Virus record (IMG/VR): IMGVR_UViG_3300031840_000616
Coordinates: 1-24,459 of that record
Direction: 5' to 3' (one strand)
DNA length: 24,459 bases
From: a virus
The position numbers were made by a program, and so were the translations under genes. A model generated the notes under the pieces. The model saw only the letters and a program-made list of their open reading frames with translations. It was not told the DNA's origin and did not search any database. This document shows positions 1,612 through 23,553 of the stretch, one piece after another (the stretch's first letter is position 1; each line of letters begins with the position of its first letter).

Positions 1612-2541
1612 ATGACTGCACGAGTAAAAGCGAGTGTTAAGGCTTTCTTTGAAACAGGAGACAAGCCCACTCAGGCACAGTTTGCGGATTTGATTGACTC
1701 TTATCAGGATGCTTCTGATGAGTTGACTGATTATGTTACACAGGTTACGGCGGCTGTGACTGCCACTGTGCCACAACGTGCAGGTACAGGAATCAAATTT
1801 GCGCTTGTTAGCGCATCAAATCTAGCTGATTCATCTATAACCTCATCAAAGATAGTTGACGGTGCTGTCAGCACTGTAAAAATAGCAAGTGCGGCTGTAA
1901 CAACTGCTAAGATTGAGGGTAACAATGTAACTCTTGCAAAATTGCAACAGATTAGCAACCAACGTGTACTAGGCAATATGTCTGGCGGTTCTTCTGATGT
2001 AGATCAAGTGATTGTTAAGGATGAGGATGATATGGCCTCAGACAGTGCCACAGCATTGGCAACACAGCAAAGCATTAAAGCGTATATTGACACACAAATC
2101 AGTGCAATTACGGGTAATTCACCTTATTTTTCTGCCTACCTTGGGGCGAATCAGTCTATTTCTGACTCTACTACAACAATATTGAATATTAATAACGAGA
2201 CTGTAGATACAAATGGTGACTTTGACACCAGTAATTATAGATTTACACCATCTGTAGCAGGTTATTATAAGTTTAATGTGAATGTTGCAATGGGTAGTAT
2301 TGCTGACCAAGGCAGATTCCAGATTGATATATATAAGAATGGCTCTGCTGCATCATCTTCTGTTGTATTGCACGCATCAACTGCATCACCTATAACATTG
2401 TCAGGCTCTTTGTCTAAGATATTACAGGCAAATGGTACTACAGATTATTTTGATGCACGTGTAACACAGGTTACAGGTGGTTCTAAGGACGCTTTGGCTG
2501 GCGATGCATTTACATGTTTTGAGGCATTTAAAATATATTAA
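1612..2541 (+). CDS. Tail fibre/appendage protein with C1q-like C-terminal head
   Basis: Residues 8-32 hold a docking-type motif (FFETGDKPTQAQFADLIDS) that recurs in the next gene. The middle (about 70-115) has short repeats built on 'aKIvdgaVttaKI', typical of the shaft of phage fibres. The last about 140 residues, from NSPYFSAYLG onward, form a beta-rich domain with the spacing of C1q/TNF-like jelly rolls (T.GDFDTSNYRFTPSVAGYYKF), a fold used in trimeric fibre tips. The start follows an AGGTGA ribosome site. It is likely a trimeric host-recognition fibre on the virion. Receptor specificity cannot be read from the sequence. Confidence 0.8.
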   Translation: MTARVKASVKAFFETGDKPTQAQFADLIDSYQDASDELTDYVTQVTAAVTATVPQRAGTGIKFALVSASNLADSSITSSKIVDGAVSTVKIASAAVTTAKIEGNNVTLAKLQQISNQRVLGNMSGGSSDVDQVIVKDEDDMASDSATALATQQSIKAYIDTQISAITGNSPYFSAYLGANQSISDSTTTILNINNETVDTNGDFDTSNYRFTPSVAGYYKFNVNVAMGSIADQGRFQIDIYKNGSAASSSVVLHASTASPITLSGSLSKILQANGTTDYFDARVTQVTGGSKDALAGDAFTCFEAFKIY

Positions 2542-2551
2542 GGCATAGTTA

Positions 2552-4321
2552 ATGAGTTACGTATCACCTACAACAGCTAAATCATACTTTGAGCAAGGGG
2601 ATAAACCTACTCAGGCTCAATTTACTGATCTTATTGATAGTACTCATCTAGAAATAGTAAACATTGCAGAAATATACGGTATTGTTGAGGGTGATAGTAG
2701 CGCAGCAACGGCTACGGCTAACGTAACGGCATTCCAGAACGCTTTTAACAGCGTTACCGAAGCTGTACAATACCAACAGACAAAAGCACTTTATTTGCCT
2801 TCTGGTGATTATTATATTGATGCACCCGTACTACCTAAATCAAGCACATTATTGTTTGGTCCTGGTGTGATGCACGGTACAACCCCAACAGAAGAGATTA
2901 TTAAGCTCTCTGGTGTTAATGACATTGTAATTGATGGTCTAGGGTTTACACATGATGTGACCCCAGGTGATTACGTAAGTGGTTGGGAACCAGCGGTGGC
3001 TAGAAATGATGGTGATGTTGATTGTAACCGTATCACCGTTAGAAACTGTATGTTCTATAAGACAGCTAACCAAGGTGTAAGAAGCCAAGGTGGTACGTTC
3101 TGGCATGTATATAACAACCGTTTCTTTGAGATTACCACAGTAGGTATTTATATCGCTGACACAGAACACATCAAGATTAATGATAATGTAATTTATCAGA
3201 CTGGTGATGATGGTATGCAGATGGCCGTAGGTGCTGACAACTACATTATCTCTGGTAACTTGGTTATTGAAGCTGGTGTTGTTCTAGGCCAATCAGGTGT
3301 GAGTGGCTCTGGTATTCGTGTAACTGGTATTAACGGTGCTGTCACAGGTAATACCATTATCAAGGCAACACTTACCGCAATTGCGGTGACAAATAACTTT
3401 AACCGCCCTAATGATCCAGTGCCTTCTAACATCACTATCTCAGGAAATAGTATCTTTGAGGTAACAGATATTGAAGGTGATACGGCCGTGGGTGGTATTA
3501 CGTTACATAACGTTGGTGATATTCTAATTGCTAACAATGTTATTGATGTTAACAAAGACCCTACCGTAGCAGGAAATTCTAAGTATGCAGGTGTTAGGAT
3601 TTACACCACTGCTCAGAATCCAGCTAACCTTAACAAGCGTATATTGATTAAAAACAACATTATCAAGAATTGCTTTGATGGTGTTCTAGTATTGAATGAC
3701 GATGTTACTCATATTGAGGTAGACGGTAATACGTTTGATACATATAAGATTGGCTTTGATATTGAGTCAACTTTGACAATTGCTAACCTTGCAATTCGCA
3801 ATAATTACTATTACAACGGTGACAGCACGCCTATACTAAATATAGGTACTGGTACATCTGCTGAGATTACAGCACTTGTGGTAGAAAATAACAAGATTGT
3901 GAGCGGTAACGGTACTTCTTCAGCTATTAACTTCCAAAGCAAGACAGTTTCTAAGTGTCGTATGCGTGGTAATGATTTCGGTGGTCAACCTCCTTACGCT
4001 AATGATTCTAATGTAGCCAATTTTGTTTTTGATGGCGATGAACAGCAAAAGCTTACAAACGAGGGAACAGCAACAGTAAGCGCGGGAAACACTAATGTAA
4101 GTGTGAGCCATGGGCTTATTAATAGAGGTGGCGGCGGTTTGACACCTAATGTTCAAGACATAACAATCACGCCTATGACTGCTGTAGGTTCTGCCAACAC
4201 ATGGTGGGTTGATACGATAGGAAGTAGCACATTTAACTTCAATATTACATCTTCAGCAGCTACTAATGTTTCTTTCGGGTGGAAGGTTCAGGCGTTGACA
4301 AATCAGAGGATCGCAGATTGA
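2552..4321 (+). CDS. Tailspike with right-handed beta-helix
   Basis: The N-terminus repeats the fibre docking motif (SYFEQGDKPTQAQFTDLIDS). From about residue 75 to 475 the protein is a series of 'I.N.I....G..I' parallel beta-helix turns, as in pectate-lyase-like tailspikes. The C-terminal about 85 residues are a small beta domain (VSVSHGL...WWVDTIGSSTFNFNI) often found at the end of such spikes. Tailspikes of this fold commonly bind or cleave surface polysaccharide. Catalytic residues cannot be assigned from sequence alone. It lies 10 bases after the fibre gene. The shared N-terminus implies both attach to the same place on the tail. Confidence 0.85.
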   Translation: MSYVSPTTAKSYFEQGDKPTQAQFTDLIDSTHLEIVNIAEIYGIVEGDSSAATATANVTAFQNAFNSVTEAVQYQQTKALYLPSGDYYIDAPVLPKSSTLLFGPGVMHGTTPTEEIIKLSGVNDIVIDGLGFTHDVTPGDYVSGWEPAVARNDGDVDCNRITVRNCMFYKTANQGVRSQGGTFWHVYNNRFFEITTVGIYIADTEHIKINDNVIYQTGDDGMQMAVGADNYIISGNLVIEAGVVLGQSGVSGSGIRVTGINGAVTGNTIIKATLTAIAVTNNFNRPNDPVPSNITISGNSIFEVTDIEGDTAVGGITLHNVGDILIANNVIDVNKDPTVAGNSKYAGVRIYTTAQNPANLNKRILIKNNIIKNCFDGVLVLNDDVTHIEVDGNTFDTYKIGFDIESTLTIANLAIRNNYYYNGDSTPILNIGTGTSAEITALVVENNKIVSGNGTSSAINFQSKTVSKCRMRGNDFGGQPPYANDSNVANFVFDGDEQQKLTNEGTATVSAGNTNVSVSHGLINRGGGGLTPNVQDITITPMTAVGSANTWWVDTIGSSTFNFNITSSAATNVSFGWKVQALTNQRIAD

Positions 4322-4641
4322 TGAAATTAAACATGGCAGGTTTTTTAGAGGATTTTGTACATTCTATGATGTACATGCCTGTCGGAATGGTATGCTACGC
4401 ATCATATAAGTTTATGTTTTCTGAGGCCGTGATATGGAGAAAGGTGCTAGGTGCAGGCGTTTGGTCTGTTCCTATAGGTTACGCTGTATCGCAAACAGGC
4501 TTTCATGCTCTGTCTTACTTTATAGCTGGCATATCAGGTGCATTTATCGTCCTATTTCTTGTAGGAATTAGAAAGATTATGGATAAATGGGCTGATGACC
4601 CTTTAAAGGTTATTAGAGAAATAAAAGGCACAAAGAAATGA
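4321..4641 (+). CDS. Holin-like membrane protein
   Basis: The ATG overlaps the tailspike stop by one base (TGATG). An earlier in-frame ATG at 4279 lies inside the tailspike gene and is less likely. The 106-residue product has about three hydrophobic segments (about residues 15-33, 40-58, 65-85) and a charged, Lys-rich C-terminus ending IKGTKK. This is the usual holin layout, in which it would permeabilise the inner membrane to release the lysin. The next gene, overlapping by ATGA, is a peptidoglycan endopeptidase. Position and topology make holin the best call, without family-level recognition. Confidence 0.65.
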   Translation: MKLNMAGFLEDFVHSMMYMPVGMVCYASYKFMFSEAVIWRKVLGAGVWSVPIGYAVSQTGFHALSYFIAGISGAFIVLFLVGIRKIMDKWADDPLKVIREIKGTKK

Positions 4642-5006
4642 TTAAATACTTTACCGAGAAAGAGATTAACTCTGTATCTTTTGGAGTAAAGAATGGTTAT
4701 GACTTTTGTGATAAAGATGTTCTAAGCAAGCTTGATAATGCAAGGGATGACGCTGGCTTCCCTTTTATTGTTGTATGTGCATATCGTTCTGTTGCTTGGG
4801 ACTTGTCTAAAAACCGTTCTGGAGACTCCGACCACTGCAAAGGCCGTGGATATGACATTAAGATCAGATCACTTGCTCAAGCTATGAAAATACAGTGGTA
4901 TTGCACTAAACATGGGTTTAATGCGTTTGGTATAAATATGGAAAAAATGTTTATACACGTTGGCTTTAGAGATATTGAAGGTGTTGTTACTTGGGATTAC
5001 CTGTAA
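4638..5006 (+). CDS. M15-family endolysin (peptidoglycan peptidase)
   Basis: A 122-residue single-domain lysin with the peptidase M15 zinc-binding pattern S-x-H-x6-D (SDHCKGRGYD, His66 and Asp73) and the late His in FIHVG (His107). Peptidases of this fold cut peptide cross-links or stems (D-Ala-D-Ala or L-Ala-D-Glu) in peptidoglycan. It has no signal peptide, so export depends on the upstream holin-like gene. The length matches minimal phage M15_3-type enzymes. The acidic general base expected before the last His is probably Glu102, which is less certain. Confidence 0.85.
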   Translation: MIKYFTEKEINSVSFGVKNGYDFCDKDVLSKLDNARDDAGFPFIVVCAYRSVAWDLSKNRSGDSDHCKGRGYDIKIRSLAQAMKIQWYCTKHGFNAFGINMEKMFIHVGFRDIEGVVTWDYL

Positions 5007-5085: not shown

Positions 5086-5268
5086 ATGGATATTAAAGGT
5101 TTATTAAAAAGCAAAAAATTTATTGCAGCTATTATCGCTGTGATTGTTGCTGTTCTTAGCTTTGCTTTCCCACAGTTTGGGGATGTCTTTGTATCAATTG
5201 GCTCAACCGTTAGTGATGTACTTTCATCTGATGCATCACAAGCTGTAAGCCAGACTATTGTGGAATAA
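5086..5268 (+). CDS. Small membrane protein of the lysis region
   Basis: A 60-residue product with a Lys-rich N-terminus (MDIKGLLKSKKF), one strong hydrophobic segment (about residues 12-30) and a Ser/Asp-rich tail. It has a good ribosome site (GGAGA) and ends in TAATG, overlapping the next start. Its place between the endolysin and the spanin-like pair suggests a second holin, an antiholin or another lysis-timing factor. No family is recognised. Confidence 0.6.
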   Translation: MDIKGLLKSKKFIAAIIAVIVAVLSFAFPQFGDVFVSIGSTVSDVLSSDASQAVSQTIVE

Positions 5269-5489
5269 TGGAATTAATTGCTTCACTGTTAAAAGCACTA
5301 ATAAAGCCTCTTAGTGAGGCTTTTAAAACGTGGTTTATATACAGAGCAGGAAGAGATTCAGAGCGTTTAAAGAATGCTGAGGCTATCAACGATAGGGTTA
5401 AGAGTAAAAATGAAATTAAAAGCGTTTTGCGTACTCGTGACGCTAAATCTATTAACAGGGTGCTCAACAAGTGGTTACGTGATAAGTGA
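5268..5489 (+). CDS. Putative inner spanin-like (Rz-like) protein
   Basis: A 73-residue product that starts on the last base of the preceding stop codon. The first about 28 residues are hydrophobic to amphipathic. The rest is charged and helical (AGRDSERLKNAEAINDRV, ending NKWLRDK). Small proteins of this form usually sit beside or around Rz1-like genes. The o-spanin-like gene starts out of frame within it, the classical Rz/Rz1 architecture. It is shorter than lambda Rz and its membrane segment is weak, so the i-spanin role is inferred mainly from the nested arrangement. Confidence 0.55.
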   Translation: MELIASLLKALIKPLSEAFKTWFIYRAGRDSERLKNAEAINDRVKSKNEIKSVLRTRDAKSINRVLNKWLRDK

Positions 5490-5616
5490 TTACTGTATTT
5501 TATACGAGCCTATACACCCAAGCTTAGATGACACAGAAGAAACATTACGGCAGATTGCTGTAAATAACTGTGTGTGGGCTGAAAACTGTTCTACTGATAA
5601 ATGTGAGATAGAATAA
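5410..5616 (+). CDS. Outer spanin-like lipoprotein (Rz1-like)
   Basis: The ATG at 5410 opens a 68-residue protein in a different frame from the gene it overlaps. It has a lipoprotein signal peptide (MKLKAFCVLVTLNLLTGCS) with lipobox LTGC. The mature part keeps the pattern seen in many phage Rz1-like lipoproteins: YC, then EPI..S..DT.ET...I..NN..W...C. It would sit in the outer membrane and join the inner spanin to fuse the membranes in the last lysis step. A longer reading from 5374 would put 12 residues before the signal peptide and is rejected. Confidence 0.8.
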   Translation: MKLKAFCVLVTLNLLTGCSTSGYVISDYCILYEPIHPSLDDTEETLRQIAVNNCVWAENCSTDKCEIE

Positions 5617-5817: not shown

Positions 5818-5847
5818 AACCCCCTAAGACTATCTAGGGGGTTTTTT
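5818..5847 (+). terminator. Strong rho-independent terminator of the late operon
   Basis: The stem CCCCCTA/TAGGGGG has an 8-base loop and is followed by six T on the plus strand. It ends transcription of the tail and lysis genes just before the convergent YadA-like gene. On the minus strand no T run follows, so it is mainly unidirectional. Confidence 0.88.
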
Positions 5848-5852
5848 ACTGC

Positions 5853-6194
5853 TTAGAATTTAAAAGCAGCTCCAACACCGAATCCAGCATTGTTTTGGCT
5901 ATCGTAAGTCATACCACCTTTAACGCGAATATCTTCGCGAAGGTCTTTTGTGTAACCTACAGACATAGCATTCTCACCAGAATAATGTCCTAGACCCACA
6001 GCAATAGCACCGTCTAGCTCTGGAAGCATACCAAGAGCATTTGACCCTGCAATACCTGCTGACAATAGATCGTTCTGGTTATCCAAAGCACTAGCCATTT
6101 CGTCTTTAGTTACTTTGTTGTGGAACCAGTAAGGTCCTGCATGTGCAGCCGTTGAAGTTAGAACAAGTGCAAATGCCAATAGTAAATGTTTCAT
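5853..6194 (-). CDS. Signal-peptide protein with YadA-type membrane anchor
   Basis: The 113-residue product has a clear Sec signal peptide (MKHLLLAFALVLTSTAAHA, cleavage after AHA). A short helix follows (residues 30-58), then alternating strands: GAIAVGLGHYSGENAMSVGY, then VKGGMTY and GFGVGAAFKF, ending in Phe. This matches the C-terminal translocator of trimeric autotransporters (YadA anchor), which trimerises to a 12-strand outer-membrane barrel. No passenger domain is present, so the protein is little more than the anchor. It is alone on the minus strand against the late operon. The role is unknown. Alteration of the infected cell surface (superinfection exclusion) is an inference. A weak GAAAG ribosome site precedes the ATG. 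Confidence 0.8.
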   Translation of the reverse strand: MKHLLLAFALVLTSTAAHAGPYWFHNKVTKDEMASALDNQNDLLSAGIAGSNALGMLPELDGAIAVGLGHYSGENAMSVGYTKDLREDIRVKGGMTYDSQNNAGFGVGAAFKF

Positions 6195-6248: not shown

Positions 6249-6284
6249 AAAAAAGCCATGAGCTATTAACGGTAGCATCATGGC
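6249..6284 (-). terminator. Minus-strand terminator
   Basis: On the minus strand the stem GCCATGA..GCTA/TAGC.TCATGGC, with one bulged base and a 7-base loop, is followed by six T. It lies downstream of the terminator at 6375-6403 and upstream of the YadA-like gene, insulating that gene from minus-strand readthrough. Confidence 0.75.
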
Positions 6285-6374
6285 AAATATCTTTAGAATC
6301 TTACGAAACAATAGCTTCTTGGAACTCTCAGTAGACAAAGTAATTCTATAAGCTATCAGTATAACAATCAACAT

Positions 6375-6403
6375 AAAAAGCCCCCGAGTAGACAGTGGGG
6401 GCT
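6375..6403 (-). terminator. Minus-strand terminator after the 87-residue gene
   Basis: On the minus strand the stem AGCCCCC/GGGGGCT has an 11-base loop and is followed by five T. It is about 45 bases past the stop of the gene at 6447-6710. Confidence 0.8.
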
Positions 6404-6446
6404 TATCAACTTAGCAGGGGAAAAACTAAAACCTGCCAGTCAATCT

Positions 6447-17937: not shown

Positions 17938-18369
17938 ATGGCAAAAGGCTATACAAAAGAACAGCGCAAAGCTTTTCAAGACGAAATATGTGAGAAGATT
18001 TGTGAAGGCTGGTCAGTAAACCAAATTCTTAAACAAAAACACATGTGCAGTTATCCTACTTATCTTGATATGTTGAGGGATGACAAGGACTTCCTTGAGA
18101 ACTACACACGCGCGCGAGAAAGTTCGGCAGACTATTACTCCCATAGAATCATAGACATAGCAGATCAATTAACAAACGGAAACAATCCGACACTCGAGCC
18201 TTCAGCGGCTAGGGTTGCTATTGATGCCTACAAGTGGACAGCAGGTAAAATGAAGCCTAAGAAGTACGGCGACATTCATAAGTTTGAACACACTGGTAAA
18301 GATGGTAAGGACTTAAACACTGTTGCAGTCTTAAATATCAACGTTACCAAGGATGAAAAAGAAGAATAA
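17938..18369 (+). CDS. terS: Terminase small subunit
   Basis: The 143-residue product matches phage TerS: an N-terminal DNA-binding HTH (DEICEKICEGWSVNQILKQK), 'FLENYTRARESSADYYSHRI', and 'DAYKWTAGKMKPKKYGD'. It binds the packaging site and recruits the large subunit, encoded about 1 kb downstream. The start has a strong GAGGTGAG ribosome site and the end overlaps the Ntn hydrolase ATG by one base. Confidence 0.85.
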   Translation: MAKGYTKEQRKAFQDEICEKICEGWSVNQILKQKHMCSYPTYLDMLRDDKDFLENYTRARESSADYYSHRIIDIADQLTNGNNPTLEPSAARVAIDAYKWTAGKMKPKKYGDIHKFEHTGKDGKDLNTVAVLNINVTKDEKEE

Positions 18370-18794
18370 TGACAACAATAGCATATAGAGACGGCGTTTT
18401 ATCCGCAGATTCATTAGTAACAAACATGGCTTGCAAGGTTGGTACATTTGAGAAGTTGTTTGATGATAAAGAAGATAATCATTACGGATGTATTGGTGAG
18501 GTTCAAGACCTTATAGCCTTTAGGAAGTGGAAAAGGGGATGTTCTGAAAAGCCTAAGGTTAGTGAAGACTTTTGTGCTTTGATGGTTGATAAAAACAACA
18601 ATCTCTGGATTTATGAGGATAAGTTAATACCTAGAAAGATGGAATGCGAATACTATGCCATAGGTTCGGGGTATGAATTTGCATTAGGTGCTATGGCTAA
18701 TGGTGCTAGTGCATACGAAGCACTCGAGGCAGCAATTAAGCATGATTGTTACTCTGGTGGTGAGATTGTTAGTATGGTGAATATATCAAAGTAG
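18369..18794 (+). CDS. HslV/proteasome-like Ntn hydrolase
   Basis: The 141-residue product begins MTTIAYRDGVLSADSLVT, the start of HslV-like Ntn peptidases: removal of Met exposes the catalytic Thr. It also keeps the Asp in 'SADS', a candidate Lys29 (FEKLF) and the 'YYAIGSGYEFALGAMANGAS' turn and helix. It is shorter than HslV (about 175) and has no partner unfoldase in the window. Such genes are seen in some phages. The gene starts in the TerS stop (TAATG), suggesting a function in capsid assembly or maturation. The target is unknown. Confidence 0.8.
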   Translation: MTTIAYRDGVLSADSLVTNMACKVGTFEKLFDDKEDNHYGCIGEVQDLIAFRKWKRGCSEKPKVSEDFCALMVDKNNNLWIYEDKLIPRKMECEYYAIGSGYEFALGAMANGASAYEALEAAIKHDCYSGGEIVSMVNISK

Positions 18795-21591: not shown

Positions 21592-22398
21592 ATGTTTCAC
21601 TTATGGTTTACACCCCACATGATTAACAGGCGAGTTATGCTTGCTGTTGAGGATGGTCTAAAAGAGATAGGACAACCTTTCAAAAGACACAACACAGATA
21701 CACCTGATGTTAAGGCTGGTGATCATATATCGTATGGAATCCTAAGAGGCAGTGGCGATGTATTCTATAAGGCACAATGTGAGGGATATGATTGGTACAA
21801 CATAGACAATGGATACTTTAAACCAGGTCACTTTGAGGGTTATTATCGTATCTCACGTGGTAATACACAGGCTAAGTTTAACCCTGCGCTTGCTACTGAC
21901 GATACGAGATGGAAAGAGTTGGGGTTAGAGATTAAGGAATGGAAAGACAATGAAGATGGTCCTATTATCATCTGCCCACCTACACCTGCTGTATGCCAAT
22001 TCTTCAGTATTGACCAAAATCTATGGATTATGCGAACCGTTGCAAAATTTAAACAAAATACTAATAGAGAAGTAATTGTAAGACATAAGGATGATCCACG
22101 TCCTCTGGATGATATGCTAGACAAGGCTTTTTGCGTATACACGTTTAATTCTAGTGTTGCGTGGCTGGCCTTATTAAATGGCGTTCCAGCCATAACAGAC
22201 AATTTTTGTGTTGTCAAATCATGGAATAACCTTACTATTGATGATGTTAATTCAGATTTAAAGAGATTCGACCGAAAAGAGTTGTTTAATTTCATGGCTA
22301 ACACACAGTTCACATTACAAGAATTTAGAGAAAGGTATGACCTATGGCTACCCGCAATCAAGTCAATGTCTACATGGGATGGGATTCTAGGGAAGTAG
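21592..22398 (+). CDS. Putative GT-B-like glycosyltransferase
   Basis: The 268-residue product contains 'ISYGILRGSGDVFYKAQ', 'DWYNIDNGYFKPGHF' and 'GYYRISRG', then a Rossmann-like half with 'IIICPPTP', 'NREVIVRHKDD' and 'YTFNSSVAWLALLNGVPAI'. This last 'nS..a..al..G.P' segment is characteristic of the donor-binding half of GT-B transferases and polysaccharide-processing enzymes. It begins a sugar cassette (GGAGC ribosome site). Donor and acceptor are unknown. A call of polysaccharide biosynthesis protein would be equally fair. Confidence 0.6.
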   Translation: MFHLWFTPHMINRRVMLAVEDGLKEIGQPFKRHNTDTPDVKAGDHISYGILRGSGDVFYKAQCEGYDWYNIDNGYFKPGHFEGYYRISRGNTQAKFNPALATDDTRWKELGLEIKEWKDNEDGPIIICPPTPAVCQFFSIDQNLWIMRTVAKFKQNTNREVIVRHKDDPRPLDDMLDKAFCVYTFNSSVAWLALLNGVPAITDNFCVVKSWNNLTIDDVNSDLKRFDRKELFNFMANTQFTLQEFRERYDLWLPAIKSMSTWDGILGK

Positions 22399-23123
22399 TT
22401 GCTTACAAAGTATGTGAGTATTCCATCAGACGTAAAACAAGAATGAACCCAAACATTCAACCTCTTGTTCATAGAGATTTAAGAAAATCAGGATATTTTA
22501 AACGCCCTTGGCTAGTTGAAGCTGGTTCAGGTGATTGGATTGATCTAATTGATGGTAAGCCATTCTCCACAGAGTTTAGTCATACACGTTTTCTAGTACC
22601 TGCATTGCAAAAGTACAAAGGTTGGGCACTGTTTATGGACTGTGACATGATCTTTACAGACGATATTAAGAAGCTATTTGATCTAGCTGATGATAAATAC
22701 GCTGTAATGGTTGTTAAGCATAAGCATGAGCCAAAAGAATCCATTAAGATGGATGATAGACTTCAAACCCGTTACCGCCGTAAAAACTGGTCTTCATTCA
22801 TCTTGTGGAACTGTAACCACCCTGCCAACAAAGCTTTAACACCTGAAGTGGTTAATAAGGCAGATGGTACGTGGTTACACCAGTTTTCTTGGTTAGAAGA
22901 TAACCAAATAGGAACACTGCCATTTGAGTATAACTGGATTGAGAATGTTAGCCCTGTGGTTAATAAGCCTCATGTTATTCATTACACTCTAGGTGGGCCA
23001 TGGTTCCAGAATGAGAAATGCCAGAACGTAAAGTATGCTCAGGAATGGGTACAAGAATACGAAAGATGGCAGAGAGAGGGCGATCATGAAGTTACAGACG
23101 TTCCAAGCACTAAGTGGGGATGA
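22344..23123 (+). CDS. GT-A-type glycosyltransferase (DxD)
   Basis: The 259-residue protein starts 'NVYMGWDSREVVAYKVCEYS', keeps 'FLVPALQKYKGWALFMDCDM' with the metal-binding DCD motif, and ends with 'VIHYTLGGPWF', the pattern of GT8-like transferases. It would use a nucleotide-sugar donor with Mn2+. It overlaps the previous gene by 55 bases, so the start is somewhat uncertain; an internal ATG at 22374 is too late for the first strand. Confidence 0.8.
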   Translation: MATRNQVNVYMGWDSREVVAYKVCEYSIRRKTRMNPNIQPLVHRDLRKSGYFKRPWLVEAGSGDWIDLIDGKPFSTEFSHTRFLVPALQKYKGWALFMDCDMIFTDDIKKLFDLADDKYAVMVVKHKHEPKESIKMDDRLQTRYRRKNWSSFILWNCNHPANKALTPEVVNKADGTWLHQFSWLEDNQIGTLPFEYNWIENVSPVVNKPHVIHYTLGGPWFQNEKCQNVKYAQEWVQEYERWQREGDHEVTDVPSTKWG

Positions 23124-23127
23124 TGAT

Positions 23128-23553
23128 ATGCCTACTGTATGTGTGTCTGGTGGGTTTGACCCACTACATGTTGGTCATCTCAGGATGTTTAAAGAAGCGG
23201 CTGAGTATGGCGATTTAATAGTAATTATCAATAGTGATGAGTGGCTTATCCGTAAGAAGGGTAAGCTGTTCATGCTGTTTGAAGAAAGAGCTGAGATTAT
23301 AGCTTCACTTGATTTTGTGTATAAGGTTGTACTGGCTAAGGATAGCGATGGCACTGTGTGCGATAGTTTGAAAGAGCTAGAACCTGATTACTTTGCAAAT
23401 GGTGGAGACAGAGGTGAGGAGAATACACCAGAGCTTGACGTATGTGAGGAGCTGGGTATAGAACCGCTATTTAATATAGGTGGCGGTAAGGTGAGAAGTA
23501 GTAGTGATATGTTGAGGCAATATAATGAAATTGGTGAGGAGAACGTGGGGTAG
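23128..23553 (+). CDS. HxGH-type nucleotidyltransferase (cytidylyl/adenylyltransferase)
   Basis: Motif 'VSGGFDPLHVGHLRMFKEA' holds the HxGH nucleotide-binding signature, followed by 'LIVIINSDEWLIRKKG', 'ANGGDR' and the late 'KVRSSSDML'. Enzymes of this type join a sugar or polyol phosphate to a nucleotide (as TagD or the HldE C-domain). The chosen ATG starts five residues before the first strand. An ATG at 23086 with a stronger GAGAGGG site would add 14 residues. It probably activates a sugar for the neighbouring glycosyltransferases. Confidence 0.82.
   Translation: MPTVCVSGGFDPLHVGHLRMFKEAAEYGDLIVIINSDEWLIRKKGKLFMLFEERAEIIASLDFVYKVVLAKDSDGTVCDSLKELEPDYFANGGDRGEENTPELDVCEELGIEPLFNIGGGKVRSSSDMLRQYNEIGEENVG

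Follow-up and report, generated by a model that had tools for sequence, protein, structure and literature searches.

The gene at positions 5853-6194 on the minus strand of a 24,459-base virus record (the window; linear and probably a fragment) codes for a passenger-less YadA-type anchor protein of 113 residues. Its anchor fold and its secretion are supported by the sequence; we infer that it forms a trimer located in the outer membrane. Adhesion is the accepted role of type Vc autotransporters, and this natural anchor lacks the adhesive passenger. Our preferred reading, held tentatively and with somewhat less than even confidence, is that a trimeric barrel would be inserted by BAM in the infected cell and would remodel the cell surface, most likely against secondary adsorption.

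In the window the tail genes (tail fibre and beta-helix spike) lie at the left end and the terminase genes in the right part. After the tail genes the plus strand carries an M15 peptidase endolysin gene (4638-5006) and then the final gene of the late operon, which encodes an Rz1-like outer-membrane spanin (5374-5616; phrog_1275, E 1.9e-12) and overlaps the ORF 5268-5489. The anchor ORF lies directly beyond it on the minus strand and faces this lysis cassette, in agreement with the preliminary description, which had placed it opposite the strand of the late operon. Neither Rfam nor tRNA scans gave a hit in the window, and no near DNA match to the whole window was found among phage records. The tail fibre (1612-2541, plus strand) and the spike (2552-4321, plus strand) are nearly identical over an N-terminal stretch (ETGDKPTQAQFADLIDS / EQGDKPTQAQFTDLIDS), which may be a shared adaptor for joining them to the tail. 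An HslV-family peptidase-like gene (18369-18794, plus strand; phrog_1040) separates the small terminase gene from the large one. Downstream of the terminase and a DNA methyltransferase there is a plus-strand cluster (21592-23553) of two genes with no named function, one of them matching phrog_28018, and a cytidylyltransferase-like gene; it perhaps serves sugar or surface-polysaccharide modification.

The anchor ORF starts with ATG and its product ends in FKF, the C-terminal residue thus being F. Residues 63-113 match positions 10-60 of the 60-position PF03895 profile (YadA_anchor), that is 51/60 positions including the last, with a score of 44.9 bits against a cut-off of 22.7, and for this reason we do not regard the ORF as one that arose by chance; the profile E-value of 1.2e-11 rules that explanation out. 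The signal peptide (residues 1-19; 6138-6194, minus strand) was called by a simple rule, not by SignalP, from a basic start, a hydrophobic core and a predicted AHA-GP cut after residue 19. According to the translation and the structural model it is followed by a short N-terminal stretch, residues 20-29 (GPYWFHNKVT; 6108-6137, minus strand), ahead of a predicted helix formed by residues 30-55 (mature 11-36; 6030-6107, minus strand). Four predicted beta strands occupy residues 64-111 (5862-6005, minus strand). Only about ten residues and one helix thus stand between signal peptide and strands, the mature protein has 94 residues in all, and the head and stalk that form a type Vc passenger are absent. 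The reading frame is open for just 119 codons in total and therefore contains no passenger upstream. By analogy with type Vc topology, surface exposure would be limited to residues 20-29 as the N-terminal part. Scans of viral_contigs and genome_contigs for close homologues with a peptide pattern gave 13 and 134 fitting stretches, respectively, and none of these encodes a relative.

Compared alone with PDB sequences, the protein gave weak matches to AtaA (E 0.014) and YadA (E 0.03). A profile built from it and six IMG/VR anchors recovered YadA 2lme at 1.1e-10, and Hia (2gr7, 3emo, 2gr8) and AtaA (9vnj) at 1.3e-8 to 5.3e-8. The same seven-row alignment served as input for AlphaFold2, with one chain modelled; besides the helix the model has strands at 45-52, 55-67, 70-79 and 84-92 (mature numbering), and its confidence is modest (mean pLDDT 60.8, pTM 0.43). 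When this model was compared with the PDB by Foldseek, the top five structures were 9vnj, 2gr7, 3emo, 2gr8 and 2lme, all of them YadA, Hia or AtaA anchors, with E from 4.1e-5 to 3.1e-3, the next row being at 0.038. Among predicted viral proteins 17 had E <= 1e-3; the phiEco32 adhesin was first, and proteins of phiR1-RT and TG1 were included. A second aligner, VIA-align, gave Z 7.1 over 61 residues for Hia 3emo, but scored pseudopilins and methyltransferases as high as anchors (Z about 7); because it failed to separate them, we rely on Foldseek and on the profiles.

In the solved type Vc anchors the helix fills the pore. In the window protein the side chains of the four strands alternate in volume and in hydropathy, more so than in shuffled strands (p 0.012 and 0.005, respectively), which is what a membrane barrel with small inward-facing residues would need. 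Gly80 in the second strand is paired with a Gly when the protein is aligned to 2lme, and in a seven-row alignment its column is Gly in 7/7 rows; we take it to correspond to the conserved second-strand Gly, G389 of YadA. The PF03895 match and the fold comparison bear out the passenger-less YadA-type anchor proposed in the preliminary description, whose observation is confirmed apart from its statement on terminators.

With the type Vc adhesins YadA, Hia and AtaA the window protein shares the Sec signal peptide and the C-terminal anchor of a helix and four strands, but bacterial frames of this type mostly have hundreds to thousands of residues, and the window protein is without their head or stalk. 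Nearly equal in size is the engineered YadA anchor YadAM (PDB 2lme, a 105-residue chain), which likewise has a short exposed part and the anchor. YadAM is a laboratory truncation, whereas the window protein is natural and phage-encoded. The engineered bare anchor is made in the E. coli outer membrane as a very stable trimer, of which no more than a short stretch is surface-exposed (PMC5681912). A natural bare anchor should therefore be able to fold. As expression strains and structures of the engineered anchor already exist, the question can be addressed directly in E. coli.

Phages encode other proteins with YadA anchors. A tblastn search among phage records gave 45 records for the window protein, all below 60% identity, 71 for the PM2 anchor and 98 for the phiR1-RT anchor. 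In Munch, phiEco32, Privateer, RF1, phiT5282EW and AAM22 a longer stretch precedes the anchor, the whole proteins having 441, 265, 194, 346, 445 and 387 residues, respectively. Ten Straboviridae records from at least five genera code for a signal peptide and an anchor only, in 122-140 residues: phiR1-RT (122), Kc304 (124), X20 (125), fHe-Yen9-01 (128), phiP4-3 (130), PM2 (131), Pm5461 (134), Mm5 (137), PEi26 (138) and CGG4-1 (140). These phages belong to Tegunavirus, Winklervirus, Kanagawavirus, Gelderlandvirus and Bragavirus, with Mm5 having no given genus. Their bare anchors, among them phiR1-RT g139 and PM2 gp088, follow the plan of the window protein, though they are just 21-30% identical to it in the multiple alignment, and are mostly labelled hypothetical. 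The genes lie among tRNA or small hypothetical genes, outside structural modules. Over six pairs dN/dS of the bare anchors was 0.13-0.43 (NG86; a rough estimate because dS is high). Since the bare anchor occurs in several phage genera with low dN/dS, the translocator alone is probably useful to a phage. The recurrence of bare anchors in several T4-like viruses appears to have been overlooked, and such proteins may let an infecting virus alter the host surface; several searches of the open-access literature, some of them narrow, found no paper on passenger-less phage anchors. It is possible, with somewhat less confidence than we give the surface-remodelling reading of the window protein itself, that phages have, on one or perhaps several occasions, cut a trimeric autotransporter to its bare translocator, which would make an unnamed class of outer-membrane proteins remodelling the surface, for example for exclusion or for occupation of BAM.

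Among the longer phage anchor proteins are phiEco32 gp119 and the "agglutinating adhesins" of Salmonella phages FSL SP-058 and SP-076. Like the window protein they are phage-encoded and have a YadA anchor, and the models of the phiEco32 and FSL SP-076 proteins match its model; unlike it, these proteins have their signal peptide separated from the anchor by a stretch that is collagen-like or coiled. In public records phiEco32 gp119 and Privateer gp126 are labelled "tail protein" though, in the part of each record that was examined, their genes are not near annotated tail genes, and this label may be spreading by similarity among phage YadA-anchor proteins.

Could the window protein belong to the virion, say as a trimeric piece of the tail that has retained an anchor-like domain? 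That several longer relatives carry the label "tail protein" would favour this, as would a YadA-domain protein, which may or may not carry this anchor, detected in a cyanophage structural proteome (PMC9146016). Against it stands the signal peptide of the window protein. The gene also lies outside the tail modules, as is likewise stated for the Salmonella phages (PMC3728262), and in 7/7 phage records with longer anchors or the PM2 anchor the gene is not annotated inside a tail-morphogenesis module, even if in RF1 and AAM22 tail-fibre-assembly or structural genes lie near it on the opposite strand. Among the 78 virion-associated proteins given by LC-MS/MS of purified phiR1-RT virions, the bare anchor Gp139 is not present, though low abundance could hide it (PMC6893735). 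The authors of that study then set Gp139 aside as resembling structural proteins in similarity searches, so that it did not enter their toxicity screen (PMC6893735). The role in the virion suggested in the preliminary description is thus disfavoured, and we consider it highly improbable. More generally, the labels "tail protein" and "virulence gene" given to longer relatives find no support in gene position or in the one virion proteome.

A change in host stickiness or aggregation by the bare anchor, as an adhesion or clumping moron in lysogenic conversion, is an alternative; for phage YadA-like genes in general, adhesion or virulence has been proposed in print. YadA-anchor genes in 19 N4-like genomes were speculated to raise host pathogenicity (PMC10654107), a Salmonella phage yadA homologue was listed as a putative virulence gene (PMC3728262), and a tendency to clump is seen in cells that produce the engineered bare anchor (PMC5681912). 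However, the adhesive head and stalk are missing from the window protein. Moreover, most phages found with a bare anchor are T4-like and would gain little from a lasting change of the host, because such phages are presumably virulent. We regard this alternative as unlikely.

Anchor frames of similar size occur in bacteria too. In Gammaproteobacteria we found 22 anchor matches in 10 of 274 genomes, all in frames of at least 304 residues. In one bacterial order, 71 of 394 genomes had anchor matches, with one frame below 150 residues among the matches listed; among those listed for the window protein itself in the same 394 genomes there were three, one of which (86 residues) matched only residues 2-35 and not the anchor. 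The short anchor frames that were read have 62, 83, 97 and 123 residues, with one more of 181 residues; a signal peptide is absent from the start of all five, one has its beginning at the end of a contig, and one is preceded by a head-like stretch and then a stop. They looked like fragments. Our samples, which are not exhaustive, thus contained the complete passenger-less form in phages only.

The occurrence of such fragments, together with the lack of a close relative of the window protein in the peptide-pattern scans, would be compatible with a gene that was captured as a trimeric autotransporter, lost its passenger and now persists as a remnant without function. The ORF is intact, however, and its signal peptide directly precedes the anchor, unlike in the bacterial frames of 62-123 and 181 residues; the same architecture also recurs in phages under the dN/dS values given above. 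A decayed autotransporter was accordingly rejected as the leading reading in view of this intact fusion and of the dissimilar short bacterial frames, and we hold a remnant to be quite unlikely.

The surroundings of the gene fit an accessory function. The preliminary description had set it behind its own terminators; hairpins are indeed present around the gene, but they are mostly not its own. Upstream on the minus strand there are two terminator-like hairpins, each followed by a T-run, at 6249-6284 (-14.8 kcal/mol, z -4.1, 0/200 shuffles as stable) and 6373-6404 (-15.6 kcal/mol, z -2.0), which would halt the neighbouring leftward genes before the anchor gene. A third hairpin with a T-run, located by scan and folding at 5818-5848 on the plus strand, would halt the rightward lysis operon, at the end of which it lies, convergent with the anchor gene. 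The terminator pattern scan listed this site as 5818-5843 and missed both upstream hairpins, whose loops are over its limit. No clear terminator was seen for the 3' end of the anchor gene itself, and in the approximately 55 bases between 6249 and 6194 the scan found no sigma-70 promoter. The stretch TATACAAT is present in these bases; we claim nothing from it.

The anchor gene behaves like an accessory "moron" gene, since it lies on the opposite strand, is set off by terminator-like hairpins and is absent from related loci. As regards an own transcription unit, T-run hairpins flank it on both sides, yet neither promoter nor clear own terminator was found. As regards absence from related phages, the anchor HMM detected 0 anchors in 155 loci retrieved with three further genes of the window (terminase 72, tail-region protein 3, Sak4-like protein 80), and PF03895 was above cut-off in 0/46 whole records, covering 46 of the 72 terminase relatives, with one weak match below cut-off; the relationship is a distant one, and many of these relatives are fragments.

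The neighbouring endolysin and spanin genes might suggest a helper of lysis or an agent of outer-membrane stress, a small barrel acting by loading or jamming BAM or by weakening the outer membrane, and thereby aiding lysis or stopping the assembly of new host porins used as receptors; the window protein, a BAM-type substrate ending in F, would suit such an action. But the gene lies on the opposite strand, apart from the spanin genes and with a T-run hairpin between, and the T4-like homologues have tRNA genes around them and RNA ligase nearby and are not part of lysis modules, although PM2 has an endolysin gene about 1.8 kb away. This weakens the change of permeability at lysis which the preliminary description had listed, and we consider a stress or lysis helper very unlikely.

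Of the three roles named there, receptor blocking is our best guess. Lambda Bor and Lom, T5 Llp and phi80/N15 Cor are phage-encoded outer-membrane proteins, of which Llp and Cor block receptors. Lambda bor lies on the opposite strand just downstream of the lysis gene Rz, a position that matches that of the window anchor gene. Of these four proteins, Lom is a monomeric barrel and the others are lipoproteins. Type Vc chains are exported by Sec and inserted by BAM as trimers. In our surface-remodelling reading the window protein would be little more than a type Vc translocator exported by Sec; BAM would insert three copies as a 12-stranded barrel with the three helices filling its pore, and about ten residues of each chain, rich in aromatics, would be left on the cell surface. 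As an accessory, moron-type gene forming its own transcription unit, it would act in the host cell during infection or lysogeny rather than as part of the virion, and the altered host surface would make adsorption of secondary phages or of the phage's own progeny poorer. Its own promoter, its time of expression and its exclusion function are presumed here.

Did the bare anchors arise once? A tree of 39 anchors has two supported bare groups, one of Tevenvirinae (100/99) and one of Bragavirus plus a Morganella phage (99/97), while the window protein is unplaced on a long branch. When all eleven bare anchors were constrained together the tree was not rejected (p-AU 0.377), and a single origin is thus compatible with these sequences. 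In BLAST comparisons nothing comes closer to the window protein than passenger-bearing anchors of phages (30%) and bacteria (39%). Because these nearest relatives, at 30-39% identity, carry passengers, whatever is drawn from the T4-like bare anchors applies to the window protein by analogy. A common N-terminal motif, FH in the window protein and [FWY]H.GTV in Bragavirus, was dismissed as coincidence, the distances to the anchor being different. In the same tree a small mobilizable plasmid of Enterobacter pairs with Enterobacter phage phiT5282EW (support 100/93), the two having nearly the same YadA-type anchor, hinting at exchange between phage and plasmid.
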